NCBI GenBank assembly: GCA_947174185.1
Contig: CAMWHY010000004.1
Coordinates: 1 to 46,910 of the forward strand
Direction: 5' to 3'
Length of the DNA: 46,910 nucleotides
DNA from: an uncultured Lachnospiraceae bacterium
Lineage (GTDB): Bacteria; Bacillota; Clostridia; Lachnospirales; Lachnospiraceae
The notes under the pieces: generated by a model
Told to the model about the DNA's origin: nothing
The model's input: only the letters and a program-made list of their open reading frames with translations
The model's database searches: none
Shown: one piece after another, positions 9,861-39,096 of the stretch
Layout of the letters: the number at the start of each line of letters is the position of its first letter
How positions within the stretch are numbered: the stretch's first letter is position 1
Position numbers and translations under genes: made by a program

Positions 9861-11036
9861 ATGGACGGCAGAAAATTTTTGAAAGGACTGGGATGGGTGA
9901 TGTTATTTTTTGTCAGCACGGCTGCCGTCGCCTTCCTAACGTTATATCTTTTAATGATGCTGTTCTGCAACGGACCTTCCATCACGGCGCGTAATACCTT
10001 TGTAGCAACCATGCTGGAAACTGGCGGCATGAAATTTGTCGTTTCATGGTATCTGTCGGAAGAAGAGGTACTCGCCATTACCCACAGCCGTACTGCTGCA
10101 GATGACGCCGCCGCGCGATATGCTGAATTGCTTGACTCCTCCGGACAGCAGACAAGTGCTCACGCTGTCGATATGGATAACTCCATAACTTCGGATGTAT
10201 CAGCGGAAGCCTTGTCTTCCTCCGTGAGAATAGGGGACGACACGATGTTCTCTGAAACTCCCTCTACAATCAGCGAAATCAGTGAGATCGGTCTGATTCC
10301 AATCAGCGGCAGGACTTTTGATGCACAGCTCCTTGTGGTCCGCGATCCGTCCCGTGTCGGTATCGCCACATCTTATCCGTGGTCTTCAACCGAACGTGAA
10401 AAGAATGGTCTGACGACCGGCGAATACTGTGACACCTATGACGCGCTTGCCGCCATCAATGCAGGAGAGTTTATTACAGCCGGTGTCAACTGGGGCGGTC
10501 GTCCAGTCGGCGTAGTTGTCTGCGACGGGGAGATCCTGTTTAACGAACCCGCTTATGGAGACGTTATGATCGGATTTAACGACAGCCATGTACTCATTAT
10601 TGAGGAAATTGGCTCCATGTCAGCGGATCAGTTTGCCTCCTATGTCACGGAGCATGCTATCATAGACGCAGTATCTTTTAAAGACATCAGCAATGGCGAC
10701 ACGAATCATTTTACGAAACTTATAGAAAATGGGGTTCCGGTCAATTTAAACGGCAGGGGCGTCGGTGCCAATCCCCGCACAGCGATCGGACAATGCGCTG
10801 ATGGAACCGTACTATTTCTGGTAACAGATGGACGCGGAACAGCAGGTCATCTAGGCGCTACCGGACAGGATCTAATCAATATTCTTACGGAATACGGTGC
10901 AGTCAATGCAGCTAACTTAGACGGCGGAAGTTCCTCTTCCCTTTATTATGACGGGGAATACAGGATCACTTCTTCTACGCTCTCATATGCGGACGCTTCC
11001 AAGCGGCTGCCAACAGCGTTTATTGTTACAAAATAA
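9861..11036 (+). CDS. Membrane-anchored phosphodiester glycosidase (NAGPA fold)
   Basis: A 391-residue protein with one N-terminal transmembrane helix (about residues 12-36), a Ser/Thr/Asp-rich linker and a C-terminal NAGPA domain (PF09992). Recognisable parts are FNAIDASCENT-like residues replaced here by AAINAGEFIT, NGRGVGANPRTAIGQ, DGTVLFLVTDGRG and the family signature NLDGGSSSSLYYDG. Members cleave GlcNAc-phosphodiester-type links, and bacterial ones are thought to act on phosphodiester sugars of surface polymers. The start at 9861 follows AAGGAAAGG by 7 bases. First gene of an operon with a membrane unknown and CotH. The catalytic domain should lie outside the cell, so it may process the polymer made by the cluster downstream, though this is inference. 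Confidence 0.88.
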   Translation: MDGRKFLKGLGWVMLFFVSTAAVAFLTLYLLMMLFCNGPSITARNTFVATMLETGGMKFVVSWYLSEEEVLAITHSRTAADDAAARYAELLDSSGQQTSAHAVDMDNSITSDVSAEALSSSVRIGDDTMFSETPSTISEISEIGLIPISGRTFDAQLLVVRDPSRVGIATSYPWSSTEREKNGLTTGEYCDTYDALAAINAGEFITAGVNWGGRPVGVVVCDGEILFNEPAYGDVMIGFNDSHVLIIEEIGSMSADQFASYVTEHAIIDAVSFKDISNGDTNHFTKLIENGVPVNLNGRGVGANPRTAIGQCADGTVLFLVTDGRGTAGHLGATGQDLINILTEYGAVNAANLDGGSSSSLYYDGEYRITSSTLSYADASKRLPTAFIVTK

Positions 11037-21410: not shown

Positions 21411-23066
21411 CTAAGGGTAAGGCACAAAAACTCCTTCCTCATCCGACAGCTCCATTAACTCATATCTATCTGTATCATACGAATAAACGTAAAATCCCCT
21501 TGCTCCGTCAACGACCCTGTCCGCCGGAAACCAATATTCCCTCGTCCGCCGATCGCCTTCTTTCCAGTCAAATATCGAAGTCCCGTATCCCGTCGCTTCC
21601 TGACCGATACACGTCAATACGGTCGCCTGAAAATCGTCATGGGAGATGGGTGCGGAAGTGATCTGCATCTCCTCCTGAGAAACATGCGGTGGCTTAATAA
21701 AATAAATCGGCTGCGGTGTATTACGGGAAATTCCATGATCCGCCGTGATGATGATCGTCGCATTATCATAGATACCACCCTCAAGATTCTTTAACTGCTC
21801 TAAATATTCCTGAATAATCACAGCAACCCCTTCTGATGTTTCCGCTAAACTGGTTATCTCCTCCGAATGCGTACCATCCGCATGAGTAATCCATGGTTCA
21901 TGTAATCCCGCCAAATGTATAATAGAAAATTTATTATCCAAAGATCCATCCACAGAAAGCCCTTCTTCCATAAGAACCTGATAAAAATCTCCATTTTCGT
22001 GGGGCACCTCATTATCTTCCCATAAAGCAATATCATGAATTACATAATCATACACTTCAAATCTCGGCTTTAAAATATACGGCACATACTTGTAGATCGC
22101 CATCTTTTCCAACTCAATATATAACAAACGATAATCAATCTGCGGTCTCGTCTCTGTGACATTGGCAATAATATGCTCAATATTTTCAATAGGTCCTACA
22201 GAATTATGAATATATCCATAAGAATACAAATCACATTCATAATCTAAATCATGCAACGTATTATAAAAATTACAACTTCGTTCTTCCTGCCAGCAAGCTA
22301 TTTTCCATTCTTCTGAAGTCATATTGCAATCATACTCTACTCCGGTCATCATATGCGCCAGAGAAGGAAATGTAAAATTATAATGACAATCCGCATTATC
22401 ATAATACGTAAAATCTTTTAACGACTCTACAATTTCCGGATGCACTGCCATCGTCTCTTCAAACTGCGTGTTATAGCAGCTGTCAAATAACAGCACAATC
22501 ACATTACTATTAGGAGCAACCTCCAACTGCCCTTCTGCAGATACTGTTTTCTGTCTGTATGCAATAGGAATTGTCGTAATCAGCAGGCTAACTATGGTAA
22601 CAAGCTGTACTGCCGAGATAAAACCTGTAATTCCCATATAAATCTTTTGATACTGTTTCTTACAAATAAACGGTATCACTATCAGTATCAAAGCAAGAAT
22701 CATCCAAATGACCAGATTAGTCCTCGTAGTCTTCTGCATACCGCTCCAGTCCATAGAACTTCCATTCATGTTCATTAACTGCACATTAAGAAACAGATTT
22801 TGGATATAAGAAAGTATGGAAAAAATAAAAATTACCACACAAAGAGCATTTTCTATTTTTTCAGGGAGAAAAGCCAACACAGCACTACCTACAAGCCAAA
22901 GCAAGAGCGAAGTCCCTAAAAACACCCAAAAGAAATCTTTTAAAATAAATATAAATTCATATGCATTTCCTGCATAGATTTCTAATGGTCCTAAAACACC
23001 ATAAAGAAGTATCGGCAATAACGTAAACACTAACGATATTTTTAATTTTTTCTTATAATTTTTCAT
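21411..23066 (-). CDS. Sulfatase-fold membrane transferase, paralog 1
   Basis: A 551-residue protein with about five transmembrane helices in the first ~170 residues and an extracellular alkaline-phosphatase/sulfatase domain (PF00884). Metal and nucleophile positions are visible: FDSCYN (D195), FTFPSLAHMMTG (T232), TADHG (D443, H444) and ISHDDF near 475. Thr rather than Cys/Ser at the nucleophile position argues for a phospho-transferase in the style of LtaS or phosphoethanolamine transferases, not a sulfatase. The likely job is to transfer a phosphate-linked group to the glycan. GAAGGA lies upstream of the ATG. It is closely similar to the copy at 25914-27578. Confidence 0.85.
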   Translation of the reverse strand: MKNYKKKLKISLVFTLLPILLYGVLGPLEIYAGNAYEFIFILKDFFWVFLGTSLLLWLVGSAVLAFLPEKIENALCVVIFIFSILSYIQNLFLNVQLMNMNGSSMDWSGMQKTTRTNLVIWMILALILIVIPFICKKQYQKIYMGITGFISAVQLVTIVSLLITTIPIAYRQKTVSAEGQLEVAPNSNVIVLLFDSCYNTQFEETMAVHPEIVESLKDFTYYDNADCHYNFTFPSLAHMMTGVEYDCNMTSEEWKIACWQEERSCNFYNTLHDLDYECDLYSYGYIHNSVGPIENIEHIIANVTETRPQIDYRLLYIELEKMAIYKYVPYILKPRFEVYDYVIHDIALWEDNEVPHENGDFYQVLMEEGLSVDGSLDNKFSIIHLAGLHEPWITHADGTHSEEITSLAETSEGVAVIIQEYLEQLKNLEGGIYDNATIIITADHGISRNTPQPIYFIKPPHVSQEEMQITSAPISHDDFQATVLTCIGQEATGYGTSIFDWKEGDRRTREYWFPADRVVDGARGFYVYSYDTDRYELMELSDEEGVFVPYP

Positions 23067-23109: not shown

Positions 23110-24768
23110 TTATTCCAGTGGGTATGTTATAAGAGTGGCTTCTTCTGGACTCTTATTCATAATCTCATATCGATCTGTTTCATAAGTATATACCCAAAAA
23201 CCTTTTACAATCTCTTTATCCCTATCTGTGGGATACCAAAGTTCCCTTATACGTTGATCTCCTTCGTGCCAATCATAGATAGACGTTCCATATTCGGTAT
23301 AATCTTGTCCTAATATATCTAATATTGTTGCCAAAAAATCATCATGAGAAATCGGTGCAGAAGTAATCTGCATACTTTCTTGTGAAGCATTAGGCAGTTT
23401 AATCAGGAAAACTGGCTGAGGCATAGACCGGTCTATACCGTGATCTGCCAATATAATAATTGTAGAGGCATCATATACTCCTAATGCCTTTAACTGCTCT
23501 ATATACTCGATCATTATAACTGCAAGACCCGCAGAGACTTCTTCCTTACTGGTCTCAATTTCTGATGGCATAGCATCTGCATGGATATTCCAAGGTTGGT
23601 GTATTCCACAGATATGAGACACACTAAATTTATTATTCAATTCTTCATCTATAGAAAGTCCCTCATCCAGAAGTTTCTGGTAAAATTCCCCATTATAATA
23701 TGTTGCACTATTGCCATCCCAAAATGCCGCCTGCTCCATTACGTGGGTCTGTACTTCAAAGGCAGGTTTTATTATATATGGAACATATTTATATATCGTC
23801 ATCTTTTCCATCAAGCTGATTAATAGACTTGTCTGAACGCGCGGCTCCATCTCTGAAATATTGTCATAAATACCTTCCACTGCCTCAGGACTTCCTGCCA
23901 CATAACTAAGCTGTGCAGTATATAAATCGCACTCATACTGTAGCGAATGTAATAATGCATAAAAGTTCTCGCTTGTCGGTTTATGCCAACAATCTTCTTT
24001 CCACTCTTCCTGCGTGATTGTTGGATCATAAGGATAACCTGTAAGCATATGAGACAATGATGGAAACGTATAATTGTAATGGGAATCCGCATTGTTATAA
24101 TAAGTAAAATCCTTCAATATGTTTTCAAAATCCGGATTCTCTGATAATGTATCTTCAAATTGCGTATTATACCAGCTGTCTACTACCAGAACAATAATAT
24201 TGTCATTAGGCGCCATCATAAATTGACTTTCTCCAGAAAACGATTTTTGGCTATAATTGATTGGAATAACCTGTATCAATAAACTGAATACAGCCACGAG
24301 TTGTACTGCACTCAAAAAGGCTGCTATTCCACTATATATCGTCTGGTATTTATCCTTGAAAACAAAAGGAACAACAAAACATATGCCTGCTATAACAATC
24401 CAGATTACAAGATTTGTCAGCATCAGTCCACGCATATTGTTCCATTCCATAGCGCTTCCGTTTGTATTCATCAACTGTTTATTAAAAAACATATTCTGCA
24501 GATATGACAGCAAAGAAAACGTAAATACAACTACACGCAGCACGTTTGATATTCTTTTAGGCAGAATGATCAACACAAAACCTGCAATAAGCCACAATAC
24601 AGCAGACAATAATAAGAAAATATAAAAAAAATCTTTCAGTATGAACACAAATTCATCTGTATTTCCAGCATATATTTCCAACGGACCCAGTATTCCATAT
24701 AGCAATATAGGAAGTAATGCCAACAGCATTGCCTCTGCAGCTTTCCTTTCTTTTAACCAGCCTTTCAT
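23110..24768 (-). CDS. Sulfatase-fold membrane transferase, paralog 2
   Basis: A 552-residue paralog of its neighbours with the same five-helix N-terminus (LLPILLYGILGPLEIYAGN). The sulfatase-fold domain carries VDSWYN, YTFPSLSHMLTG (Thr nucleophile position), LADHGIDRS and SAPISHDDF. It differs most among the three copies. The ATG at 24768 is preferred because AAAAGGAG lies 9 bases upstream, which also removes a 44-base overlap with the acyltransferase gene. Likely an extracellular phospho-group transferase or hydrolase acting on the polymer. Its substrate may differ from those of copies 1 and 3. Confidence 0.85.
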   Translation of the reverse strand: MKGWLKERKAAEAMLLALLPILLYGILGPLEIYAGNTDEFVFILKDFFYIFLLLSAVLWLIAGFVLIILPKRISNVLRVVVFTFSLLSYLQNMFFNKQLMNTNGSAMEWNNMRGLMLTNLVIWIVIAGICFVVPFVFKDKYQTIYSGIAAFLSAVQLVAVFSLLIQVIPINYSQKSFSGESQFMMAPNDNIIVLVVDSWYNTQFEDTLSENPDFENILKDFTYYNNADSHYNYTFPSLSHMLTGYPYDPTITQEEWKEDCWHKPTSENFYALLHSLQYECDLYTAQLSYVAGSPEAVEGIYDNISEMEPRVQTSLLISLMEKMTIYKYVPYIIKPAFEVQTHVMEQAAFWDGNSATYYNGEFYQKLLDEGLSIDEELNNKFSVSHICGIHQPWNIHADAMPSEIETSKEEVSAGLAVIMIEYIEQLKALGVYDASTIIILADHGIDRSMPQPVFLIKLPNASQESMQITSAPISHDDFLATILDILGQDYTEYGTSIYDWHEGDQRIRELWYPTDRDKEIVKGFWVYTYETDRYEIMNKSPEEATLITYPLE

Positions 24769-24784
24769 TGGAAACTTCTCCTTT

Positions 24785-25867
24785 TCAGCTATGTTTTTTC
24801 GTACACAAGTAAACAATCGGTCTTTCAACCAATCGCACTAATATCCAAGATAATAAAAACGACACTATCAATACAACTATATAACAAATATAAATTTTTA
24901 AATTGCCGATCTGTTGCCCAAAGAGCTTTTGTGCTATTTCTAATAAGGGAAAATGAAATAAATAAATTCCATAGGAATATTTTCCTAAGGTTTTAAATAT
25001 TGGATTCTCAATCAAACAGATCTTATCTATAAATGAAATAAATATCATAATTGCAAATACCAATGCATATTCTACGATTACAGCTCCATGATGTATCATA
25101 AAGAATAACCACAACAAACATACTCCTGTAGCAGCATAACAAAAGCTCTTTTTTCCATTACTTAAGTGCCGTTTAATAGTATTCAAAATATCTGTCTTTT
25201 CTAAAATATAATATAAGATCATCCCTATTACCAATACCGGTAATTGCGCTACGATAGAAAAATTCATCCAATATGCAGTCCACACATAAGTATCTTCTCC
25301 AAAGTCTATCGTCCCTATCGTATGGTTGCATATGATATTGCACAACCACGAAAGCGCTAATAGTATAAAGAGTTTATCAATACGATCCATCAATCGATAT
25401 AGCAGGGGTGCCGCCACAATAAATATAGCAAGAGTTCCTATATACCAATTAATGTTGATGGCATTAGACCACCATGGATACAAGCCATGAATAAACAAAA
25501 AATTAGATATAATCGTCCCCATCGTCATACCATGAGTTCCCGACCAATAAGACGATGTCAAACCATCCTTTACCAATACAAATAAATTAGCAATATAATA
25601 CAGTGGTATCAAACGTATAAAACGTTTTATATACCATGCTTTTAAAGAAATACCTTCTTTCTTTTCATGTTCTTTCTGCAAAGATTTAAAAATAAGCATG
25701 GATGAAATAATCAAAAAAATCTGAACACCTTTTGCACCCGCAGATGACAATTCTCCTATAACGCCTCCCAAATCTGCAGCCCCGCAATGCACTAATAGTA
25801 TTCCCAATATTGCTATTCCTTTAAAGGCATCTACGTTATTAAAATATATTGTCGAAGTTTTATTCAC
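24785..25867 (-). CDS. Membrane acyltransferase (acyltransferase-3 family)
   Basis: A 360-residue multi-pass protein of the PF01757 family, which O-acetylates or otherwise acylates surface glycans. The N-terminus has the expected NVDAFKGIAILGILLVHCG (His near residue 27 is the catalytic candidate) and AGAKGVQIFLIISSMLIF near 45. About ten transmembrane helices follow, with YSYGIYLFHFPLLE near residue 293 and a C-terminal LVRLVERPI. It sits between two sulfatase-fold genes in the same direction. The DNA is visibly more AT-rich than its neighbours, which may mean independent acquisition. Confidence 0.88.
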   Translation of the reverse strand: MNKTSTIYFNNVDAFKGIAILGILLVHCGAADLGGVIGELSSAGAKGVQIFLIISSMLIFKSLQKEHEKKEGISLKAWYIKRFIRLIPLYYIANLFVLVKDGLTSSYWSGTHGMTMGTIISNFLFIHGLYPWWSNAININWYIGTLAIFIVAAPLLYRLMDRIDKLFILLALSWLCNIICNHTIGTIDFGEDTYVWTAYWMNFSIVAQLPVLVIGMILYYILEKTDILNTIKRHLSNGKKSFCYAATGVCLLWLFFMIHHGAVIVEYALVFAIMIFISFIDKICLIENPIFKTLGKYSYGIYLFHFPLLEIAQKLFGQQIGNLKIYICYIVVLIVSFLLSWILVRLVERPIVYLCTKKHS

Positions 25868-25913: not shown

Positions 25914-27578
25914 TTAATGACAGGGTACATAGATTCCTGCCTCATCCGGCAGTTCCATTAACTCATATCTGTCCGTGTTATACGTATAAATATAATATCC
26001 CCTTGGTTTGAAAACTGATCCAACAGTATCCCAGTCCTCCGGAAACCAACACTCCCTCGTCCTCTGATCGCCGTCCTTCCAATCAAACACCGATGTGCCA
26101 TACCCCGTACTGTCCTGACCAATGCACGTTAGTACAGTCGCCTGAAAATCGTCATGCGAAATCGGCGCAGAAGTCACCTGCATCTCTTCCTGTGAAGTAT
26201 GCGGCGGTTTAATAAAATAAATCGGCTGCGGCGTATTACGGTCAATACCGTGATCTGCCGTAATGATGATAAGAGCGTTATCGTAGATGCCCCCACCCAG
26301 ATTTTTAAGCTGCTCAATATATTCCTGAATAATCACTGCATTCCCTTCTGATGTTTCCGATAAACTGGTAGTCTCCTCCGAAAGCGTACCATCGGCATTG
26401 GTATGCAACGGATAATGAAAGCCCTGCAGATGTAAGACAAAAAATTTATTATTTAATGATACATCAACGGAAAGACCTTCCTCCTTCAATTCTTGATACA
26501 AACCGCCATCTTCCCAAACATTCACCCTTTCTTCAAAGTAAGCAATATCCTTGAGCACATTATCATGTACTTCAAATCTCGGCTTCAAAATATAAGGCAC
26601 ATATTTATAAATCGCCATCTTTTCCAACTCTACATACAGAAGACGATGATCTATCATGGGAGATGAACTAATGACTGTATTGTCAATAATACCCACCAGA
26701 TTCGTAGGCGATCCAACTGCATAATCATCCTCGCCATAATAATCACACTCATAATTCAACTCATGCAGTAAATTATAAAAATTAACACTTCGTTCTTCGT
26801 GCCAGCTGGACTCTTTCCACTCTTCCGGAGGCATATCACAATCAAACTCTGTTCCTGTCATCATATGTGCCAGAGATGGATAAGTATAAAAATAATGACA
26901 GTCTGTATTATCATAATATGTGAAATCTTTCAATGACTCTGCAATTTCCGGATGTATGGCCATAGTTTCCTCAAACTGCGTGTTATAAACGCTATCTAAC
27001 AACAGTACGATTACATTACTATTGGGGGCTACCGCAAGCCGTCCTTCCACAGATAAGATCCTTTCGCTGTATCGGATGGGAACTGTCGTAACAAGAAGAC
27101 TGACGATCGTCACAAGCTGTACGGCGGAGATAAACGCCGTAATTCCCAGATAGATCTTCTGATACTGGTTTTTAAATACAAACGGAATCACTGCAAACAC
27201 AACAGCAAGGACAATCCAGATGATCAGATTAGTTGCCATCATTCCTCGCATACTTTCCCAATCCATAGCGCTTCCGTTCATATTCATAAGCTTACTGTTC
27301 AAAAACAGATTCTGCACATAGGAAAGAACGGAAAAGATGAAAATAACAACATGCAGCACATCTCCTGCCTTTTTAGGCAGGGATGCCAAAACCGCGCTTC
27401 CCACAAGCCATAGTAGCACAGATCCGATGAAAAAAAAGAAAAAAAAGTCCTTTAATATAAAATCAAACTCGTCTGCGTTTCCAGCATAGATTTCCAACGG
27501 ACCTAGTATTCCATAAAGCAATACCGGAAGAAGCGTAAAAATCAAAGAGAGCTTCCATTTTTTCTTAAAGTTCTGCAT
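25914..27578 (-). CDS. Sulfatase-fold membrane transferase, paralog 3
   Basis: A 554-residue paralog with five N-terminal transmembrane helices and an extracellular sulfatase-fold domain. The key positions are LDSVYN, YTYPSLAHMMTG (Thr at the nucleophile position), ITADHGIDRN and APISHDDFQATVL. It is most like copy 1, with long near-identical stretches (FEETMAIHPEI, MAIYKYVPYILKPRFEV), pointing to a fairly recent duplication within the cluster. Its ATG overlaps the stop of the ABC transporter gene (TAATG), so the two are translationally linked. Confidence 0.85.
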   Translation of the reverse strand: MQNFKKKWKLSLIFTLLPVLLYGILGPLEIYAGNADEFDFILKDFFFFFFIGSVLLWLVGSAVLASLPKKAGDVLHVVIFIFSVLSYVQNLFLNSKLMNMNGSAMDWESMRGMMATNLIIWIVLAVVFAVIPFVFKNQYQKIYLGITAFISAVQLVTIVSLLVTTVPIRYSERILSVEGRLAVAPNSNVIVLLLDSVYNTQFEETMAIHPEIAESLKDFTYYDNTDCHYFYTYPSLAHMMTGTEFDCDMPPEEWKESSWHEERSVNFYNLLHELNYECDYYGEDDYAVGSPTNLVGIIDNTVISSSPMIDHRLLYVELEKMAIYKYVPYILKPRFEVHDNVLKDIAYFEERVNVWEDGGLYQELKEEGLSVDVSLNNKFFVLHLQGFHYPLHTNADGTLSEETTSLSETSEGNAVIIQEYIEQLKNLGGGIYDNALIIITADHGIDRNTPQPIYFIKPPHTSQEEMQVTSAPISHDDFQATVLTCIGQDSTGYGTSVFDWKDGDQRTRECWFPEDWDTVGSVFKPRGYYIYTYNTDRYELMELPDEAGIYVPCH

Positions 27579-29371: not shown

Positions 29372-30238
29372 TTATTTCTCTGCTATCGTTATCTGATACC
29401 AGTCTCTCAGGTAAAACTTCTCATCCCACATACCAATCCTTGGGCAGATCACATATTTTTCCGGATTTTGATTCTGATATGCGCCCCACCAGCTGTAAGA
29501 ACTGTTTGCAATGATATTGTTGCGGCATCGGCTCATCAGATACATATCGTCTCTGACCGGAGACTGTGAATCATAGCTGACAAAAGTTATCTGCCGCCCG
29601 GAATCTTTATAATATTCTCTGGCAAAATCCATATCATCCGAAAAGATATAATAATGCGGGGTCACGCCTAAATGCTCTTCCATCTTTATCATCGCGGCAT
29701 CATAATAAGACATCGGAATATCCCATGCAAGACCTACGTAATCACCTCTCCGGATATGCACGGATACGCTCTCCTCCCGCTGCATTTGTTTTGCCAGCGC
29801 GGTTACACTCTCTGTCTTATCTTCTTTCGGCTGCAGCAGTGGTAACAGTTCTTCGCGATATTGATTGAAATAATCCGGATTCTGCCAGAACCCATCAAAA
29901 TACGTATTCTTATTTATCTCAAATACGTCCGGATCATATTGGATCAACTGTTTTTCCTTATATACGGTAGTATTCCACCCTATTGCATTTCTTTTACAGA
30001 ATCTGTTGATACCCAGCTTTCTATATAACAGCCGGCTGTCATAAGGATATGTTATGAGTTTATCATAGGCAATATTCAAATGCAGGATCTCCGCTTGCCG
30101 GTTCTTTACGATATGATGATGCAGCATACTGGTATCCAGCCACAGCTGCGCCTGCAGTCTCTTTGACACTGCATAGCCCAGCGCATAACAAAACAGCTGG
30201 TTTCCATATCCTCCCTTAATATCCACGATCACATTCAC
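29372..30238 (-). CDS. GT11-type alpha-1,2-fucosyltransferase
   Basis: A 288-residue GT11 enzyme of normal family length. The N-terminal DIKGGYGNQLFCYALGYA (residues about 7-24), the donor motif VSVHIRRGDYVG near 155, FSDDMDFA near 200, and the C-terminal NSSYSWWGAY near 245 are all classic. GT11 enzymes move fucose from GDP-fucose to the 2-OH of a galactose-type residue, making H-antigen-like structures. It starts with GTG at 30238. It is next to a GT10-like enzyme in the same operon, so a Lewis-type product is conceivable. Confidence 0.9.
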   Translation of the reverse strand: MNVIVDIKGGYGNQLFCYALGYAVSKRLQAQLWLDTSMLHHHIVKNRQAEILHLNIAYDKLITYPYDSRLLYRKLGINRFCKRNAIGWNTTVYKEKQLIQYDPDVFEINKNTYFDGFWQNPDYFNQYREELLPLLQPKEDKTESVTALAKQMQREESVSVHIRRGDYVGLAWDIPMSYYDAAMIKMEEHLGVTPHYYIFSDDMDFAREYYKDSGRQITFVSYDSQSPVRDDMYLMSRCRNNIIANSSYSWWGAYQNQNPEKYVICPRIGMWDEKFYLRDWYQITIAEK

Positions 30239-30271
30239 TGATTTATTCCGTCTCTCTCCTATGGATTTTTT

Positions 30272-31270
30272 CTATGATTTATTTTCTACATCATCCAGTG
30301 AAAATTCATCCCTATAATGCATCATCAGATAATCCTCTATACACCGATACTGCTTCACCCGCTCAAAATTATCGATCACTGCCTCCCGTCTTGCTTCATA
30401 ATCCTGGGCGGAACACTGCTTCAGAACGTCTTCAATATGATCGCATTTTTCCTCTTCCAGTGTGATAATACCATCCATATTAAAATACTTACCAATCTTT
30501 GTCGCGCCCAGATAAACCGGGATCGTCATAGACGCAAAACAATCCAGAATCTTTTCCGTAAAATAATAGGGCTTTACATCATTTTCCACCACTATGCTGT
30601 AACGATAATCATCTAAGGCATCCGCCTTTTTATTGACACGATTGTTGCAAAAAGCCCCATATCCATCCGCCAGATCTGCTTCCACCGCCCTTTTTGCTGT
30701 CTCTACACGTAATCTATGATATTTTGTGTGGGATTTGGCAGAAGCCACCACCGAAACATTTTTCTCTTTCTTCTCATAACGCCGTTCATCCAGCGTTCCT
30801 CCATTGACTGCAGTGCCATACCAAAGTCCGCTGGCAGGAATAAACAATGCGTTTTGATACCGGTCTAAGACCTGATCCGAGAACGTAAAGATTTTACTGT
30901 ATTCTGCCATTCTGCCCGGATCATCCATCACACGTGTATAATCCTCCGGCTGGATCGTCTCTGATTCAAACAACAGCGCATATTTACGGACACAATAAGG
31001 ACTTGCCTCTTCAAATATAGCCTTATGGGAAAAAAACTGGATCGGAAGTCCCGTGTTGTTGCGATCCCACAAAATTTCCTCCGGTTCCTGATCTAAGACC
31101 AGTGTATACGGCGTATGCTGCGCCAAAACATCCTGTAGGTAAAATACCCGCTTTCTCTGCCCTTTCCGGTTATATACTAATGGCTCCTGCTGCGCTTTCA
31201 ATATCTGAAAATGCTGTTTGATTCTGCGTTCCCTCATAATCTTATAAGGAACGATATCCCTTAATTTCAT
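30272..31270 (-). CDS. GT10-like alpha-1,3/4-fucosyltransferase
   Basis: A protein of about 332 residues. The diagnostic stretch near residues 228-270 reads YRYSIVVEND, then KPYYFTEKILDCFASMTIPVYLGA, matching the GT10 signature (FxxxFEN...YVTEKIxDAF...PVYxG). ASAKSHTKYHRLRVETAK near 175 fits the family donor-side helix. GT10 enzymes transfer fucose to the 3- or 4-OH of GlcNAc. The ATG at 31270 follows AAGG by 7 bases; a TTG lies at 31276. The N-terminal ~100 residues are divergent. Located between GT2 and GT11 genes and preceded by one copy of the repeated leader. Confidence 0.82.
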   Translation of the reverse strand: MKLRDIVPYKIMRERRIKQHFQILKAQQEPLVYNRKGQRKRVFYLQDVLAQHTPYTLVLDQEPEEILWDRNNTGLPIQFFSHKAIFEEASPYCVRKYALLFESETIQPEDYTRVMDDPGRMAEYSKIFTFSDQVLDRYQNALFIPASGLWYGTAVNGGTLDERRYEKKEKNVSVVASAKSHTKYHRLRVETAKRAVEADLADGYGAFCNNRVNKKADALDDYRYSIVVENDVKPYYFTEKILDCFASMTIPVYLGATKIGKYFNMDGIITLEEEKCDHIEDVLKQCSAQDYEARREAVIDNFERVKQYRCIEDYLMMHYRDEFSLDDVENKS

Positions 31271-31283
31271 CCGCAATCCTTAC

Positions 31284-32427: not shown

Positions 32428-33549
32428 TTATCTATTAAGATAAGACATAAAGGCCTCCCGGTTCTCCGCCGCCGTCTCCTTTGGTCTCCCCAGATCTGCT
32501 CTGGAATCAAGTCCCACCATGATCTCGCAGAGTACAGGTCCTTTTTCATTCAGCAAGTCTCTTATCTGCGTCATATCTTCCTGCTTAGCGATAGAAAGCG
32601 CCTTCTTATATCCTGCTGCCTGTGCCACTTTTACAAAACTGACTGCCTGTGCGCCGGTGGGCATTGCGCCAACTGACTCATGCGCCTGATTATTAATGAT
32701 GATATGAATATAATTCTCCGGGGCATTGGCTGCCAAAAATGCCATGCCTCCCATATGCATCAACGCCGCGCCGTCCCCATCAATACAGACCACTTTTCGA
32801 TCCCGCTGATCCTGTGCAATGCCAAATGCGATCATGGATGCATGTCCCATACCGCCCACTGTCATAAAAATCCGGTCATGATTACCATATAGCTTATCAC
32901 TCTGTTCATAAAGTTCTCTGGAGATCTTACCCGTCGTCGATACAATACATGCCTCCTGCGGAATCATTTTAAGAAGTTCACCCAGCGCCCATTCCCGGTT
33001 CATCGGATATCCATTTTCCCAGACAAATTTATCTGCTTTTTCAAAGGTTCCTTTTTTTACAACCAGAGCAAATTGTTTCCTCTCTGCCATGGCGTCCTCT
33101 GCCTGTTTTAAGATAGTCTCCATCTCTTCCATGGTAGTATCTGCATCCAAAACCGCGTAAGGTATGGAAAGCACATCTAATAATTCTTTCGTGATCTTTC
33201 CCTGATAGACATGCTGCGGCTCATCCTTCACCCCGGGTTCTCCGCGCCATCCAACAATCAAGAGCATCGGTATGCCATACACTTCCTTATTGGCAAGGGA
33301 TGTAATCGGATTGACGATATTGCCCAGACCGGAATTCTGCATATAGACGCATGCCGGATGACCGGACGATAAATACGTCCCCACAGCGATACCAATGGCA
33401 GCGCCTTCATTTACCGGCACATAATGTTTCAATTGACCCTGATAGGACTGCAGCCCGTCGCAAAACTGCTTCAAGGTAGAATCCGGCACTCCAGTGATCA
33501 CTTCGATCCCCATCTGTTCAATGCTTTGTAATAAGGTCTGTGCATTCAT
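32428..33549 (-). CDS. aepY: Phosphonopyruvate decarboxylase
   Basis: A 373-residue thiamine-diphosphate enzyme that turns phosphonopyruvate into phosphonoacetaldehyde, making phosphonate synthesis irreversible. The N-terminal PYR part has ITGVPDSTLKQFCD near residue 18, VNEGAAIGIAVG near 46 (catalytic Glu) and YMQNSGLGNIVNP near 69. The C-terminal PP part has TVGGMGHASMIAFG and the ThDP motif from CIDGDGAALMHMGGM to INN. Length and motifs match AepY/Ppd. It overlaps the stop of the cytidylyltransferase gene by 32 bases, so the two are probably co-translated. Confidence 0.95.
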   Translation of the reverse strand: MNAQTLLQSIEQMGIEVITGVPDSTLKQFCDGLQSYQGQLKHYVPVNEGAAIGIAVGTYLSSGHPACVYMQNSGLGNIVNPITSLANKEVYGIPMLLIVGWRGEPGVKDEPQHVYQGKITKELLDVLSIPYAVLDADTTMEEMETILKQAEDAMAERKQFALVVKKGTFEKADKFVWENGYPMNREWALGELLKMIPQEACIVSTTGKISRELYEQSDKLYGNHDRIFMTVGGMGHASMIAFGIAQDQRDRKVVCIDGDGAALMHMGGMAFLAANAPENYIHIIINNQAHESVGAMPTGAQAVSFVKVAQAAGYKKALSIAKQEDMTQIRDLLNEKGPVLCEIMVGLDSRADLGRPKETAAENREAFMSYLNR

Positions 33550-34228
33550 TAATCTTTTTCAACTCCTCTACTGTGTCAATTTCTATGATCTGTCCCTCAT
33601 AAACCGGCTCCACCACCAGATCCAGTTTATCCAGGTTCCTGTCTACCACATCATCCCAGAAAAGCTCGCCGCTGCCATTCCATGTATAAGCCTGTTCGAT
33701 CAGATTTTTTAACGTTGCCGCATCTTTCTGACAAAACCATGCAACGCCTACCATATTGTACGCATCCGTCCCGCCTTTTCCTACGCGGCTGATCCGTCCG
33801 TCCTTAATTCCAAATGTCCAATCGTCAGAATATCCTGCCTGCATCCTTCCATAATAACAGGAGTGATGCAGCTCCTTTTGAAAGATCTCGGGAGCAGCCA
33901 CATACAGGTCCGACTCGCAGATAAAGCAGTTACCTAACGGCAGTATCTCCCGTGCTGCGTAAATAGATGAGATATTGTTTTTGACATCATATTCTTCATT
34001 CCTGATCAGATGTACCTGCGGATACTTTGCTTCCATCTGCTGAAACTGTTCTCCCAGATAGCCTGTCACGATATAAATTTCATCTACCGGTCTGGTCAAC
34101 AGTCCCTCGATCACTGTCTCGATCATCGGTTTCCCGTGAACCGGTATCAAAGGTTTTGGCATCGTCTCCGTCAGCGGACGCATCCTGGTGCCCATGCCGG
34201 CGGCCATAAGGATTGCATATTCTTTCAT
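33518..34228 (-). CDS. pntC: PntC/LicC-like cytidylyltransferase
   Basis: A 236-residue nucleotidyltransferase. The pyrophosphorylase motif MAAGMGTRMRPLTETMPKPL is at residues 8-27. ESDLYVA near 105 holds the metal Asp, and DDWTFGIKDGRI and ELFWDDVVDRN follow. Its closest known types are LicC (CTP:phosphocholine) and PntC (CTP:2-aminoethylphosphonate) enzymes, which activate small aminoalkyl phosphates or phosphonates as CDP or CMP derivatives. Placed between PEP mutase and decarboxylase genes, CMP-AEP synthesis is the natural reading. The substrate choice is inferred from context. Confidence 0.85.
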   Translation of the reverse strand: MKEYAILMAAGMGTRMRPLTETMPKPLIPVHGKPMIETVIEGLLTRPVDEIYIVTGYLGEQFQQMEAKYPQVHLIRNEEYDVKNNISSIYAAREILPLGNCFICESDLYVAAPEIFQKELHHSCYYGRMQAGYSDDWTFGIKDGRISRVGKGGTDAYNMVGVAWFCQKDAATLKNLIEQAYTWNGSGELFWDDVVDRNLDKLDLVVEPVYEGQIIEIDTVEELKKINECTDLITKH

Positions 34229-34353: not shown

Positions 34354-35649
34354 TTATAACTCATCAATCAATCGGATAATGTCCTTAAATGACATTAACG
34401 CTTCGTCTGCTTCAAGCGAACGGTGATTTTTCAATATCGTTTCCGCCGTTTTCTGCATTGCCGGAAAAGCGCTTCTTGTCAGCTGATTGGCATAGATAAC
34501 GATATTCACGCCTGCCTTGGCAAGTTCTTCCTCCGTTATAGAGGAAAAAGAAGTCGGCACAACTACGATGGGTGTCTCCTGATCCGTCTCACGGAACAGA
34601 CGACAGAATTCCACGATCTCATCAGGCGTTTTCTTTCTGGAATGAATCATGATCCCGTCTGCCCCGGCTTCCACATAAGCCTTTGCCCGGGTCAAAGCAT
34701 CCTCCATTCCCTGCTCTAAGATCAGGCTTTCAATCCTCGCAATGATCATACAATCATCTGTCCGCAGGGCTTCCTTTCCTGCGCTGATTTTGGCGCAGAA
34801 GTTCTCAATACTGTCCTGTGTCTGCTCTACTTCCGTGCCAAATAAGGAATTTTTCTTCAGTCCGGTCTTGTCTTCTATGATTACAGCAGAAACCCCCATC
34901 CGCTCCAATGTGCGGACATTATAGACGAAATGCTCGATCAGCCCTCCGGTATCGCCATCCAGAATGATCGGCTTGGTCGTTACATCCATAACATCATCAA
35001 TGGTTCTGATCCGGGAAGACATATCAACCAGCTCTATGTCCGGTTTACCCTTTGCTGTAGAATCGCACAAACTGGATATCCACATGGCATCAAACTGATC
35101 CAGTTCACCATGATGCTCTACCACCGTCTTTTCTGCAATCAATCCTGTCAGTCCGGAATGCACTTCCAGCGTCTTGACGATCGGACGCATTGCGATCAGC
35201 TGCTTCAGCCTTTTCCTTCTAAACTCCGGCATCGCCAGTTTTTCTTTGATACGGTCATCTATCTTTTTGACTTCCCTGTTATACGTATAAGGCGCTTCAA
35301 TTAGTTCTCCGCCATACTCAGAGAGGTTCTTCAGTACATTCTGGCGGATCGCATTCTCCGGTCCCTCTTTCCAGTTGTCCCCATGAATCACATAATCCGG
35401 TTTTTCTTTTGCAATCACTTCATCATACATGATGGTATTCTGCACGATCACACGATCCGCAAGGCCGGTATTTTTCACGATCTCTATCCGATCCTCTAGA
35501 GAGATCGTCGGAAAGCGGTTGTATCTTACCATCGCTTCATCGGCCAGAACGCCCACAATCACTTCGCCATATTCCTTCGCTCTTTTTAAAATATTCAGAT
35601 GTCCCTCATGGATCACATCTGTACAAAAACAAGTATAAATCTTCTTCAT
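34354..35649 (-). CDS. aepX: PEP mutase with N-terminal cytidylyltransferase domain
   Basis: A 431-residue two-domain protein. Residues 1-140 form a glycerol-3-phosphate-cytidylyltransferase-like domain with TDVIHEGHLNIL (HxGH) and YVIHGDNWKEG. Residues ~145-431 are PEP mutase, which rearranges PEP to phosphonopyruvate, the entry step of nearly all natural phosphonates. The diagnostic loop IEDKTGLKKNS near residue 268 is the true mutase signature (EDKxxxKxNS), distinguishing it from isocitrate-lyase-family lyases. GSLILDGDTGG-like metal-site residues are present as ILDGDTGGLIEHF. Fused forms are known from surface-polysaccharide loci. GGAG precedes the ATG, and the AEP transaminase gene lies immediately upstream. 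Confidence 0.95.
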   Translation of the reverse strand: MKKIYTCFCTDVIHEGHLNILKRAKEYGEVIVGVLADEAMVRYNRFPTISLEDRIEIVKNTGLADRVIVQNTIMYDEVIAKEKPDYVIHGDNWKEGPENAIRQNVLKNLSEYGGELIEAPYTYNREVKKIDDRIKEKLAMPEFRRKRLKQLIAMRPIVKTLEVHSGLTGLIAEKTVVEHHGELDQFDAMWISSLCDSTAKGKPDIELVDMSSRIRTIDDVMDVTTKPIILDGDTGGLIEHFVYNVRTLERMGVSAVIIEDKTGLKKNSLFGTEVEQTQDSIENFCAKISAGKEALRTDDCMIIARIESLILEQGMEDALTRAKAYVEAGADGIMIHSRKKTPDEIVEFCRLFRETDQETPIVVVPTSFSSITEEELAKAGVNIVIYANQLTRSAFPAMQKTAETILKNHRSLEADEALMSFKDIIRLIDEL

Positions 35650-35709: not shown

Positions 35710-36843
35710 TTATTGGTACATCACAGGTATGGATACATTGTATTTTGTTAAGGCCTCCCTGAATACCACAAAGAAATCTTCAATATCCTGTTCCGTGATC
35801 GCCCCCAATGCACACAGACGGAACATCCCTTTCTTCTCTACCTTACCGGGATAGATCGTAAAACCTCTTTCATAACAGTAATCATGCACTTTTCCAAAGT
35901 CCCAGTTCGGGTCGTCAGGATAAAGCGCTGCTGCCACCAACTCAGACTGAATTTCTTCCGGAATAAAGATATGAAATCCAAGTTCCGTAAGATTTCTGCG
36001 GATGGCTGCAAAAACCTTTCGATGCCGTTCCCATTTTGCCTGTTCACCTTCTGCAAAATATTCCTTCAGAGCCTGCCTTGTGGCATAAATCACTTGTACC
36101 GGAGGCGTAAAATGCATTTCTCCATGCTCCATAAAATACTGATACTGCAAATATAAGTTACAATAATAGGATCGCTTCGGATATTCCGCCGAAGCTTCTA
36201 TTGCATCCCGTCTGCCAATAATAAAGGATAATCCTGTCATAGCCATGATACCCTTTTGCGCCGATGCCATACAGAAATCAACATTATCCTCATGTATATT
36301 GATCGGACGCATCGCATAAGTAGAGGTTGTATCCACAACAAATCTCGCACCATACCGGTGCACTAATGCACCGATCTCCCTGATCGGATTTAATAGGCCT
36401 GTCCCTGTCTCATGGTGCGTAATATATACCAGCGCAATATCCGGGTTCTCCTGCAGGACTTTTTCAACCTCTTTCAGATCGGGCTGCTGATTAATTGGCA
36501 GCTTCATGTCGATATGCTCCAGACCATAATAGTTACAGATTTCTACCCCACGGCTGCTGTAAGCTCCATTATTGATCACAAGGATTTTCTTTCCTTCCGG
36601 CAGGAGTGAGTTTAGACAGATATCCATATTGATCGTTCCTGAACCACAAAACAGGACTGCTGCATATTCTTTCGGATCTGCGTGGACGATCTTTAACAGA
36701 CCCTCTTCGATCTCCCGCATGATTCCCACAAACTCTTTCTCCCGTGGACAGATATCCGGTACGATCTGCGCCATCTTTACAGTATCCGTCGTCGTTGCCG
36801 GACCGGGATTTAATAATACTTTTCTTTCTACTTTCACATCCAT
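35710..36843 (-). CDS. phnW: 2-aminoethylphosphonate-pyruvate transaminase
   Basis: A 377-residue class V PLP aminotransferase. LLNPGPATTTDTVKMA near residue 10 is the PhnW N-terminus, FCGSGTINMD near 65 binds phosphate, VDTTSTYAMRP near 168 holds the cofactor Asp, and SAQKGIMAMTG near 192 holds the PLP lysine. In a biosynthetic cluster it runs toward AEP, aminating phosphonoacetaldehyde. In B. fragilis the same step is called aepZ. It is followed by PEP mutase and preceded by the insertase-transferase fusion, 30 bases away. Confidence 0.93.
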   Translation of the reverse strand: MDVKVERKVLLNPGPATTTDTVKMAQIVPDICPREKEFVGIMREIEEGLLKIVHADPKEYAAVLFCGSGTINMDICLNSLLPEGKKILVINNGAYSSRGVEICNYYGLEHIDMKLPINQQPDLKEVEKVLQENPDIALVYITHHETGTGLLNPIREIGALVHRYGARFVVDTTSTYAMRPINIHEDNVDFCMASAQKGIMAMTGLSFIIGRRDAIEASAEYPKRSYYCNLYLQYQYFMEHGEMHFTPPVQVIYATRQALKEYFAEGEQAKWERHRKVFAAIRRNLTELGFHIFIPEEIQSELVAAALYPDDPNWDFGKVHDYCYERGFTIYPGKVEKKGMFRLCALGAITEQDIEDFFVVFREALTKYNVSIPVMYQ

Positions 36844-36873: not shown

Positions 36874-38745
36874 TTATGCCTTTTTCTGCCGTTCCATTAA
36901 TTGATTGATCAGATATAATGCCCCTGTCTTTCCGCTGGAGCCGACATTATAGATATAACGGTCTCTGAGTTCCTTCATAGCTTCCGCAGAAAATTCTTTA
37001 TCATACAATAATGTTTTCACCGTCTTCGCCAGGTCATCCATCTGATCAACATCCAGCGAAATGCCAACTTTGTCTCTTAGCTCAATATCAATCGGCACCG
37101 TGGTAAGCTCCTGATAATCCGGATTCATGATCTTCATAGGTGTATTGATAAAAAGAACCGGTTTTAACGTTGCAAAACAATATTCAAAAGCGATGCTCGA
37201 CCAGTCTGTTACCAGCAGATCCGCGGTATACACCGTACTATTGGAGGAAAAATCCGTCTGTATCTCTATATTTTTACCCTCATACTTCTTTCGCAGACGT
37301 TCTATCTTATCCATACAGTGCCTTACATACTGGGGATGCGGTCGTACGATAATGTGATAATCCGTCTCTGCAAGCTGCCCCAGCATAGGCTCGATGCAAA
37401 GATCCAGAATATTGTCCTTTTGCCAGGAGGGTGCGATTAATACCGTTTTCCCGCCATCATCTCCCCTACTTTGATCCGACAGATTTTCATATCCTTTGAT
37501 CATATTATCAATAACTCCGGAGCCCCACTCAATCAGATTTTTCTTTGGCAGACCATATTTCTCCTCCCGCTCCGCAATCTCCTCTTTATTCTTCGGTCCG
37601 GAAGTAAAAATCGTATCAAAATGATCCAGCGCATTTTTGTGAAAACTCAGATTAGAACTATTGACGTCATGGGGCAGATAGACATACTCGATATCTTTCT
37701 GCACATAAGAACGCTTTAGCTGGAAGTTCTCCAGATCCGGCGTCGTCATCACCATGATATCTGTCTCCAGCTTCATCATCAACACGATCAGTCGGTTCTC
37801 TCCAATGTAGTAAGGCTTAAACTGGTTGCTCTCCAGCTTGAACACCTCGTCCTCAGCATCGCTTGTGATATAATGGATCACAATATTCGTCCTTCTGATG
37901 ATTTCTTCAATTACATTTTTATAATATTTATAAAATCCGTTTTTTTCCGAATAAAATACGATTTTTTTCTTTCCGGCAGACAAAAACCGTTTATAATCCT
38001 CTTTTTCTTTATTACGGTAGGGATTTTTCTTATTCTCTTTTTTTCCTGATGCCAGATACTGTCTTGCCTCTTTTAATTCTGCCTTACTCTTTTCCAGCGC
38101 CTCATAATCAATATAATCCTTAGGATTGATCCAGATATTCAGTAAAAACAGTTGTAAAACAGAAAAAAGATTGCTGCAGGTCCAATAAAATCCCACACCA
38201 ATCGATACAAAAAGCCCGAGATACAGCGACAATACCACGGAAAAGATCATCGTACCATACTGATTCAGCGCTCCCTGCTCTGCCTGAAGCACATTGATCT
38301 TATTCTGAATATAGCACATAAACCATGCTGAAATACCTGCAAGAGCCGGAATCAGCAGCGTCCATCCCCAAGCTTGCGTCGGTACTGCCGTCAAATCAGT
38401 TCCCTTTTTCACGGCTTCCACAACACCCATCAATAGCGCCAGCTGCACAAAAAGAGGCACGAGATCAAGAAACGGACTGTATTTCTCCTGTTGAAACAGC
38501 TTATACTGCTCTTCCGAAATCTTCTCCTTGTTTCCAAAATAAGCAGCCTCAATATGATTTAACTGAGGGCGCATCCTTACAGTCTTGATAGAATTCTTCT
38601 GAACCCAGACAGACAGGGGAAGCAATATCACTTTCGTTAATAATGTAAAAATCAATATTGCCATCCAATAGTTCGGTATGATCTTATAACATCCATTGAT
38701 CAGCCATACCAGCGCATCTATGACAACATCCGCAATCATCTTCAT
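36874..38745 (-). CDS. YidC/Oxa1 insertase domain fused to TagF-like glycerophosphotransferase
   Basis: A 623-residue fusion. Residues 1-220 are a YidC/Oxa1 membrane domain with about five transmembrane helices, including WMAILIFTLLTKVILLPLSV; Lys38 takes the place of the usual groove Arg. A Lys-rich linker follows. Residues ~260-623 match the CDP-glycerol glycerophosphotransferase family (PF04464), with YLPHDVNSSN, VRPHPQ near 468 and TDWSSIAFEY near 513. TagF-type enzymes use CDP-alditol donors to build phosphodiester polymers. Lying beside genes for CMP-AEP, it might instead use CMP-AEP, with the YidC part as a membrane anchor or protein-assembly site. The ATG at 38745 follows the repeated leader; an upstream in-frame ATG lies inside the ribosome site. 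Confidence 0.88.
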   Translation of the reverse strand: MKMIADVVIDALVWLINGCYKIIPNYWMAILIFTLLTKVILLPLSVWVQKNSIKTVRMRPQLNHIEAAYFGNKEKISEEQYKLFQQEKYSPFLDLVPLFVQLALLMGVVEAVKKGTDLTAVPTQAWGWTLLIPALAGISAWFMCYIQNKINVLQAEQGALNQYGTMIFSVVLSLYLGLFVSIGVGFYWTCSNLFSVLQLFLLNIWINPKDYIDYEALEKSKAELKEARQYLASGKKENKKNPYRNKEKEDYKRFLSAGKKKIVFYSEKNGFYKYYKNVIEEIIRRTNIVIHYITSDAEDEVFKLESNQFKPYYIGENRLIVLMMKLETDIMVMTTPDLENFQLKRSYVQKDIEYVYLPHDVNSSNLSFHKNALDHFDTIFTSGPKNKEEIAEREEKYGLPKKNLIEWGSGVIDNMIKGYENLSDQSRGDDGGKTVLIAPSWQKDNILDLCIEPMLGQLAETDYHIIVRPHPQYVRHCMDKIERLRKKYEGKNIEIQTDFSSNSTVYTADLLVTDWSSIAFEYCFATLKPVLFINTPMKIMNPDYQELTTVPIDIELRDKVGISLDVDQMDDLAKTVKTLLYDKEFSAEAMKELRDRYIYNVGSSGKTGALYLINQLMERQKKA

Positions 38746-38753
38746 ACTAATTC

Positions 38754-38773
38754 CATGCCTTTCCATAACCTGC
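38754..38773 (-). repeat. Repeated leader motif, copy 3
   Basis: On the minus strand GCAGGTTATGGAAAGGCATG, identical to copies 1 and 2. Its CGCAGG end pairs with CCTGCG to make a hairpin at 38769-38788, five bases before the GGAAAGG ribosome site of the insertase-transferase fusion. Confidence 0.8.
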
Positions 38774-38798
38774 GATTTGGGCCGCAGGCACAAATTGC

Positions 38799-38832: not shown

Positions 38833-39096
38833 CTAATCCTCTTCCGTTTCCTCAATATCCTTCAGCTCGATCTTTTCTTCCGGCTGTTCATCCTTTTTGC
38901 CCTTCTTAAAAAGCTTGGCAATTTTATGACGAAACACGGTAAGGATGGCGCCCAGCGCAATAAATACGGCAGCTACAGCCTGCACCACATAAGTCACTGC
39001 GGAAGGATCGATATAAGCAAACGATACGTTTGAAAAGAACATCCAAAAGCAGGTAAAAAAGTACACGAATTTTACAGCATTTCCAAAATGTTTCAT
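38833..39096 (-). CDS. Small membrane protein with YIDP motif
   Basis: An 87-residue protein with an N-terminal signal-like hydrophobic stretch (about residues 8-27), then AYIDPSAVTYVVQAVAAVFIALGAIL as a second transmembrane segment, and a Lys-rich then Glu-rich tail (KLFKKGKKDEQPEEKIELK). The YIDP/YLDPG-like segment recalls unnamed small proteins found in bacterial exopolysaccharide clusters. No function is known to me. It may be a partner of the insertase-transferase fusion encoded just downstream. The charged tail suggests membrane-surface interaction. Confidence 0.75.
   Translation of the reverse strand: MKHFGNAVKFVYFFTCFWMFFSNVSFAYIDPSAVTYVVQAVAAVFIALGAILTVFRHKIAKLFKKGKKDEQPEEKIELKDIEETEED

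Follow-up and report, generated by a model that had tools for sequence, protein, structure and literature searches.

A YidC-TagF fusion beside 2-aminoethylphosphonate genes in Lachnospiraceae, a candidate transferase for surface polysaccharide decoration

A 46,910-nt stretch of the genome of an uncultured Lachnospiraceae bacterium (contig CAMWHY010000004.1 of assembly GCA_947174185.1; hereafter the window, meaning the whole of this stretch) encodes a protein in which a YidC/Oxa1-type insertase domain is joined to a TagF-like transferase domain, and four genes of the 2-aminoethylphosphonate (AEP) pathway lie directly downstream on the same strand. We propose, at about even confidence, that this fusion is the membrane-bound AEP transferase of a three-part transmembrane system decorating a surface polysaccharide. 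The TagF domain, on the cytoplasmic side, would use cytidine monophosphate-linked AEP (CMP-AEP) supplied by the four downstream genes and would place AEP on a membrane lipid carrier; the YidC domain, together with a small membrane protein encoded upstream (the YIDP protein), would let the lipid-linked headgroup cross the bilayer; and membrane proteins of the alkaline phosphatase superfamily (AlkP) would move AEP from the lipid to a glycan outside. Relatives would combine the same core with another module, predicted to supply cytidine diphosphate (CDP)-ethanolamine-type or CDP-choline donors. A preliminary description of this DNA had proposed a phosphonate or alditol-phosphate transferase whose YidC part holds a lipid-linked acceptor or a membrane partner; the connection with AEP and the small partner were borne out, and the AlkP proteins, which are linked and sometimes fused to the core, had been overlooked.

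Results

The fusion gene is a single uninterrupted frame of 639 aa counted from its first TTG. An in-frame ATG at residue 17, already favoured in the preliminary description, is the likelier start and gives 623 aa, because homologous frames, for example that of locus L060, begin exactly there. Both halves scored above their Pfam cut-offs (60KD_IMP over residues 42-219, 94.2 bits for a cut-off of 35; Glyphos_transf, PF04464, over residues 386-614, 51.8 bits for a cut-off of 22.1), and the protein stayed below the cut-off of NCBIfam TIGR03592 (78.8 vs 84.3). An AlphaFold2 model, built from 67 sequences (that of the window and 66 relatives), had a mean predicted local distance difference test score (pLDDT) of 84.5 and a predicted template modelling score of 0.61. 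Foldseek matched it to YidC of B. halodurans (3wo7; template modelling score by target 0.74) and, among many enzymes of the GT-B fold, to TagF (3l7k; 0.58) and Cps3D (8qoy); a profile of the TagF domain also matched Cps3D (E 1.1e-7) and TarL (E 1.9e-6).

In 81 aligned fusion sequences His375, His486 (within an RPHP motif) and Asp530-Trp531-Ser532 (within a TDWS segment) are invariant, and the functional roles of these residues in the fusion we assume. The arginine of the YidC groove is replaced by Lys54, as had been noticed, and this position holds Lys in 77 and Arg in 4 of the 81 sequences. We considered this replacement as a mark of lost insertase function and dropped the idea, since the housekeeping YidC of the same genome (L001:1219-2610) has Tyr at the corresponding position (aligned by eye), so that little can be read from the Lys alone about lost insertase activity. 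That genome (2.96 Mb, 97.45% complete) contains four YidC-type matches: the housekeeping one, whose frame adjoins yidD-like and jag-like frames (named by eye), the one in the window, and two in another contig, C16.

The fusion is real and not an assembly artefact, as 94 loci, the window included, hold such an open reading frame (ORF). They were drawn from 60 related genomes, from a scan of 84,980 species (best 80 of 469 relatives), from wider stretches and from the window; removal of nine copies at 97% or more left 85 loci, contig-cut fusions such as L053 being counted. L098, with no frame containing both domains, was left out of the 80 named loci, and L055 (cut), L056, L057, L058 and L008, without a YidC-TagF frame, stand outside the 94. 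The family is centred on Lachnospiraceae, a title carried by 64 of the 80 named loci, the remainder being titled, for example, Butyrivibrio, Lacrimispora, Colinaster, Eubacterium, Oscillospiraceae, Ruminococcaceae or Eubacteriales. In a sample of the phylum only 5 of 398 genomes, our own included, gave a TagF match at E 1e-30, and in three of them (G318, G669 and G726) the matched frame is not fused to YidC; the fusion is therefore rare outside its group. Within an evenly drawn sample of 299 genomes of the family, all TagF matches sampled in the 15 fusion genomes other than that of the window are YidC fusions.

Two loci show damaged forms of the gene. In a species of the same genus (L022; G018 contig C47) there is a decayed copy, a remnant of the TagF end with 88% identity over 81 residues and two in-frame TAG codons. 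At L128:10001-11943 the fusion lies beside AEP genes in two pieces, a 140-aa YidC and a 518-aa frame, through a frameshift or an assembly error.

The association of the fusion with the AEP pathway, which the preliminary description had predicted, is evident in the family sample. The fusion occurs in 16 of the 299 genomes, phosphoenolpyruvate (PEP) mutase in 32 and both in 10 (Fisher p = 2.5e-7); PEP mutase is thus found in 10 of 16 genomes with the fusion vs 22 of 283 without it, and in 8 genomes the two are on the same contig within 3 kb. In the window itself PEP mutase, phosphonopyruvate decarboxylase (Ppd), AEP aminotransferase and a PntC-type cytidylyltransferase stand together, as in AEP phosphonyl-tailoring clusters, and PntC-type enzymes are described as making CMP-AEP (PMC6697681).

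Other donor modules were also found. Among the 85 loci, in which the AEP share is inflated because the 80 named ones are the top hits of a query that is itself AEP-linked (the family sample being the fairer), PEP mutase lies within 10 kb in 35, a protein joining a nucleoside triphosphate (NTP) transferase to a pyridoxal phosphate (PLP) enzyme in 12 (one of them also with LicA), LicA alone in 3, and none of these in 35. For the 55 loci whose two flanks each extend 4 kb or more the corresponding numbers are 29 for AEP, 9 for NTP-PLP, 2 for LicA, 1 for NTP-PLP with LicA and 14 for none. The NTP-PLP protein (~605 aa) has NTP_transf_3 and Aminotran_1_2 domains in the two examples analysed; its PLP half is nearest to 6oux, a "Threonine phosphate decarboxylase-like enzyme" (E 2.3e-41), to which we take a serine-phosphate decarboxylase to be related, and its N-terminal half also matches LicC (1jyk) and 6pd1. 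It is predicted to make CDP-ethanolamine or a similar CDP-aminoalcohol. NTP-transferase/LicA-like proteins are present in L101, L117, L119 and L134, and in the 15 loci with a non-AEP module the donors are predicted to be of the CDP-ethanolamine type or CDP-choline. The ~605-aa gene (example L090:11841-13691) occurs in 32 of the 299 family genomes and adjoins the fusion in three (G143, G253 and G270), which come in addition to the 8 with PEP mutase within 3 kb. The protein, a predicted one-protein route to a CDP-aminoalcohol, occurs without a YidC-TagF fusion in 28 of the 32.

An exchange of modules is apparent at L090 and L096, which are one syntenic locus with YidC-TagF proteins 75% identical. 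Identity is 81-100% for the genes that precede the fusion and for the nearest two past the module and 41-68% for more distal ones, and L096 has AepZ, PEP mutase, PntC and Ppd at the spot where L090 has the ~605-aa gene. On a quick tree of the TagF domain, the labels for donor and architecture have to change at least 12 times, the minimum needed being 3.

When 35 AEP-linked sequences were compared with 15 linked to CDP-alcohols, residue 376, which follows the invariant His375, ranked first of 606 columns, being non-Gly in 34 of the former and Gly in all 15 of the latter. The single AEP-linked exception (L129) has its PEP mutase several genes off. The top 30 separating columns comprise 24 in TagF, 4 in the linker and 2 in YidC (of 366, 22 and 218 among the 606), and an HG motif is known in characterised TagF enzymes. 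Outside the training set, residue 376 was non-Gly in 14 of 14 AEP-linked cases, several of which are orthologues of one genus and not independent (L024, counted on its adjacent AepZ only, L028, L034, L035, L037, L145, L147, L157, L167, L168, L169, L170, L182 and L184); L159-L161 and L174-L176, probable or possible copies of training rows, were left out. Two results speak against the rule: Gly was found in only 1 of 3 CDP-alcohol-linked cases outside the set (HG in L031, HA in L056, HW in L165), and the rule, which is post hoc, fails phylogenetic correction (of 5 independent pairs 4 agree, 0 disagree and 1 is a tie; p = 0.125). We take the link between residue 376 and the type of donor as suggestive.

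The 87-aa YIDP protein does not reach the cut-off of any Pfam model. Its motif, AYIDPSAVTYVVQAVAAV, occurs within 600 nt of the fusion, up- or downstream, in 73 of the 85 loci vs 3 of 1181 control windows of 660 nt, so the neighbouring small protein pointed out in the preliminary description is indeed a conserved partner. Twelve fusion loci lack the motif, and in three of these (L079, L114 and L136) one flank offers little space. The motif was also found near the N-terminus of all 16 TagF-like paralogues examined. In L117-L119 (positions ~8672-9967) a conserved protein of 411-431 aa with an N-terminal hydrophobic segment occupies the usual YIDP spot directly upstream of the fusion.

Five domain orders were found, namely YidC-TagF, YidC-TagF-AlkP, AlkP-YidC-TagF, YIDP-TagF and YidC-AlkP. 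The YIDP-TagF form stands beside YidC-AlkP both in other genomes and in contig C16 of the genome of the window; in C16 (L008:12148-18934, L009:1132-3776) the order is YidC-AlkP, YIDP-TagF, YidC-AlkP, and the two YidC-AlkP proteins are 75% identical and have Asn at the groove position (by eye). Moreover, YIDP-TagF neighbours AEP genes in L028, L034, L035, L037, L145, L147, L157 and L188. L187, which comes from a different family within the phylum, encodes PEP mutase, Ppd, an NTP transferase and AepZ in this order, followed by a TagF-like protein, a 115-aa frame and two sulfatases. From the fusions and the linkage shared among YIDP, YidC, AlkP and TagF it follows that TagF plus AlkP is the recurring unit, that YidC and YIDP are its membrane parts, and that one of three modules supplies the donor. 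Upstream of the C16 locus are AlgJ/AlgX-like and MBOAT-like genes (named by eye).

The window encodes three AlkP-type proteins (551, 572 and 554 aa), farther downstream of the fusion on the same strand. A model of the 551-aa protein (pLDDT 91.7) matched YejM/PbgA, LtaS and EptA among many sulfatases. The columns that are invariant in 42 aligned relatives include D195, T232, H384, H389, D443 and H444, and we take the roles of these residues to be those of LtaS-type enzymes (Thr nucleophile and metal ligands). The best solved match of the 42-row profile was LtaS (2w5q, E 5.4e-12); a single-sequence phmmer search of one AlkP domain against chains of the Protein Data Bank gave only two weak kinesin matches, and the Pfam Sulfatase model fell just under its cut-off for the protein encoded at ~21411-23066 (23.0 vs 25). 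With transmembrane helices and an AlkP domain bearing catalytic-type residues, the window proteins fit the LtaS/EptA type.

Of the 85 loci, 59 encode an AlkP-type protein that is either joined to the YidC-TagF core or lies within 10 kb of it, and in 14 of them it is joined. In the family sample the Pfam Sulfatase model (E 0.01) matched 12 of 18 fusion loci vs 3 of 19 control loci, which have PEP mutase and no TagF-like gene (p = 0.002); AlkP probes derived from the fusions matched none of these 19 loci (354 kb), and the same probes also missed the sulfatases of L187. The controls came from 22 of the 24 family genomes having PEP mutase without an adjacent fusion (G180 and G186 were left out), and ORF calling missed PEP mutase itself in two of the loci taken from these 22 (L142 and L148). 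We also considered whether loci with AEP genes lack AlkP domains, and rejected this, an AlkP gene being found in 26 of 35 AEP loci, with three in the window.

Judging from its genes, the window locus is a surface-polysaccharide island, as it also encodes glycosyltransferases, an ABC transporter, and FdtA-like and acyltransferase genes. The positions of the main features are collected in Table 1.

Table 1. Positions in the window of the fusion gene, its parts and the linked genes
Feature	Position	Strand	Remarks
YidC-TagF fusion gene	36874..38793	(-)	one frame, from first TTG
Probable start ATG of the fusion	38745	(-)	in-frame
YidC/Oxa1 (60KD_IMP) domain	38137..38670	(-)	residues 42-219; Lys54 replaces groove Arg
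TagF-like (PF04464) GT-B domain	36877..37989	(-)	residues 269-639
His375-Asp376 codons	37666..37671	(-)	column after invariant His is the best separator of AEP and CDP-alcohol sequences
87-aa membrane protein (YIDP protein)	38833..39096	(-)	upstream of fusion; conserved partner
AepZ/PhnW 2-aminoethylphosphonate aminotransferase	35710..36843	(-)	TIGR03301, 451.5 bits
PEP mutase with N-terminal cytidylyltransferase-like domain	34354..35649	(-)	TIGR02320, 412.5 bits
PntC-like MobA/LicC-type NTP transferase	33518..34228	(-)	expected CMP-AEP maker; enzyme type as in PMC6697681
Phosphonopyruvate decarboxylase (Ppd)	32428..33549	(-)	TIGR03297, 467.1 bits
AlkP-superfamily membrane protein, predicted extracytoplasmic phosphotransferase	25914..27578	(-)	AlkP-type probes
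Second AlkP-superfamily membrane protein	23110..24828	(-)	AlkP-type probes
Third AlkP-superfamily membrane protein (modelled)	21411..23066	(-)	five long N-terminal helices, then AlkP domain

Elsewhere in the window, tandem GT11 and GT10 glycosyltransferases (29372-31276) make a fucosylated glycan possible, and two EAL-domain proteins encoded side by side near the polysaccharide locus (5726-9599) make control by cyclic di-GMP possible. A CotH-kinase-domain protein is encoded at 12302-14263, and another (L041:5597-7405) adjoins the YidC-TagF-AlkP triple fusion of L041. Membrane proteins of the GtrII family (Glucos_trans_II; L110:3802-5370) and of DUF6020 (L111:3366-5291), each cluster adjoining the fusion in 6 loci, hint at a parallel outer-face glycosylation.

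Discussion

The steps of the proposed system are not equally secure. That the TagF domain uses CMP-AEP is well supported by the gene neighbourhood and very probable. That the AlkP proteins move AEP from lipid to glycan is probable at a moderate level: their linkage to the fusion is observed, and the chemistry is deduced from their resemblances. The lipid intermediate and the crossing role of YidC form the weakest step, which we rate slightly below an even chance. Membrane AlkP enzymes of this shape, such as LtaS and EptA, take headgroups from lipids, which is one reason to favour a lipid step. A second is that the genome of the window yielded no phosphatidylserine decarboxylase, which also makes an EptA-like use of phosphatidylethanolamine unlikely. 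The third is the proposal that insertases generally scramble lipids, made in a paper whose title reads "Lipid scrambling is a general feature of protein insertases" and which includes E. coli YidC among the insertases put through in vitro scrambling tests, and Oxa1-family members including B. subtilis MisCB in its simulations (PMC10491306). A YidC domain that passes a lipid-linked group across the membrane would fit the pattern of fusions better than one that holds an acceptor.

Several observations weigh against this scheme, besides the inflated AEP share among the named loci. No donor module was found in 35 of the 85 loci, of which 21 have less than 4 kb on one side and 14 do not, and 26 of the 85 have no AlkP-type protein in the available flank. 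YidC was not found in L187 by the probes used, which suggests that it is not always needed. Three PEP-mutase loci without a TagF-like gene are Sulfatase-positive (G214, G245 and G319); in G214 (contig C20, 44987-45832; L140) a 686-aa sulfatase-type frame lies directly beside the AepZ of an AepZ-PepM-PntC-Ppd set, with no TagF-like gene found by the probes, so AEP genes can have an AlkP neighbour even where a TagF-like gene is lacking. This broader Sulfatase control led us to lower our confidence in the outer transfer slightly. Moreover, LtaS uses phosphatidylglycerol, and the AlkP proteins could do likewise, independently of AEP.

These points bear on an alternative that we consider unlikely, though the least so of the three weighed here, in which TagF acts as LicD would and puts AEP from CMP-AEP straight onto an undecaprenyl-linked oligosaccharide at the inner face, YidC and YIDP serving only as an anchor and the AlkP proteins making an unrelated modification, for example with glycerol phosphate from phosphatidylglycerol. 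TagF enzymes normally work at the inner face, and both the loci without AlkP and the AlkP found in 3 of the 19 control loci, with PEP mutase and no TagF-like gene, count in favour of this alternative. LicD-like transferases or glycosyltransferases are also named as neighbours of PntC loci (PMC6697681). However, AlkP is fused to YidC-TagF or to YidC itself, it accompanies fusions more often than it does PEP mutase on its own, and a complete YidC fold would be an extravagant anchor. It is still less probable, and in our estimate rather improbable, that the YidC domain is a dedicated insertase which inserts or chaperones YIDP and the polytopic AlkP proteins, leaving the transfer to TagF. The YidC fold is intact, position 54 is Lys or Arg in 81 of 81 sequences, and both YIDP and AlkP, encoded nearby, resemble membrane proteins; however, the genome has a separate housekeeping YidC, insertion needs no covalent link to TagF or AlkP, and the two YidC-AlkP proteins of C16 have Asn in the groove.

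Membership in PF04464 and the proximity in structure and sequence to TagF, TarL and Cps3D would also suit a teichoic-acid-like polymerase of glycerol- or ribitol-phosphate, with the AEP genes close by only through shared residence in a capsule island. We regard this as very improbable. The donor modules at these loci are of the CMP/CDP-aminoalkyl type, and the module swap between L090 and L096 argues against it as well. No glycerol-3-phosphate cytidylyltransferase (TagD) above cut-off was found by homology in the 97%-complete genome of the window, the only one surveyed for tagD, where the best TIGR01518 score was 32.6 bits, on the N-terminal domain of PEP mutase, for a cut-off of 165.4; a separate TagD-like gene was found within 10 kb in 0 of the 85 loci with that PEP mutase domain as probe, which is weak for TagD. 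The CDP-glycerol reading was rejected on the lack of a TagD above cut-off, and the pattern that would have spoken against a role in AEP transfer, mainly tagD and no AEP genes, is not what these loci present. Of the two activities first suggested, the phosphonate link therefore stands and alditol-phosphate is disfavoured, with CDP-ethanolamine-type and CDP-choline modules to be added.

Returning to the transmembrane AEP transferase, its parts resemble known systems and depart from each. The fusion shares with TagF, TarL and Cps3D the GT-B fold, the invariant His375, the RPHP motif and the TDWS segment; in contrast to them, it has an N-terminal YidC domain, genes for CMP-AEP or CDP-aminoalcohols instead of CDP-alditols, and a non-Gly residue after the His in nearly all AEP-linked members. 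Its 60KD_IMP domain and fold are those of YidC/Oxa1 insertases, whereas it is fused to an enzyme, encoded in a surface-glycan locus, additional to a housekeeping yidC, and has Lys in the groove. The modelled AlkP protein has the helices, domain and invariant catalytic-type residues of the LtaS/EptA/YejM/PbgA group, and differs in its genetic tie to YidC-TagF and YIDP and in that phosphatidylethanolamine is an unlikely donor. The proposed logic, and only this, is that of GtcA/GtlA/GtlB glycosylation as outlined in PMC7389260, with a cytoplasmic transferase making a lipid-linked unit, a flippase and an outer transferase. In place of GT2, GtcA-type flippase and GT-C transferase, however, the fusion and the AlkP proteins belong to other Pfam families, and a phosphono- or phospho-amine would be moved rather than a sugar. 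An aminoalkyl donor activated by CMP or CDP is common to LicC/LicD phosphocholine and PntC phosphonyl tailoring (PMC6697681), and PntC-like and LicC-LicA-like genes occur here; the proposed transferase is YidC-TagF instead of LicD, with an outer AlkP partner in addition.

The component families are known, and neither their assembly nor its link to AEP was met with in the open-access literature searched; by title and opening of the abstract, no description was found there of YidC fused to a TagF or AlkP enzyme. We tentatively suggest, at somewhat less than even confidence, that they make up an undescribed class of machine, in which a YidC-fold lipid conduit is coupled, by covalent fusion or by way of a YIDP protein, to an inner nucleotide-dependent transferase and an outer AlkP transferase, and in which CMP-AEP, CDP-ethanolamine-type and CDP-choline modules are interchangeable. 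If this is true, a member of the YidC/Oxa1 family would move lipid headgroups and not proteins, and the fusion would give a physiological setting to the lipid scrambling ascribed to insertases (PMC10491306). Surface tailoring with phosphonates beyond CMP-AEP is termed enigmatic in the PntC paper (PMC6697681), and the fusion offers a concrete candidate enzyme, with a three-gene pathway, for these later steps in Lachnospiraceae. Decoration of the surface with AEP, phosphoethanolamine-type groups and phosphocholine would in this way be tied to one modular machine.

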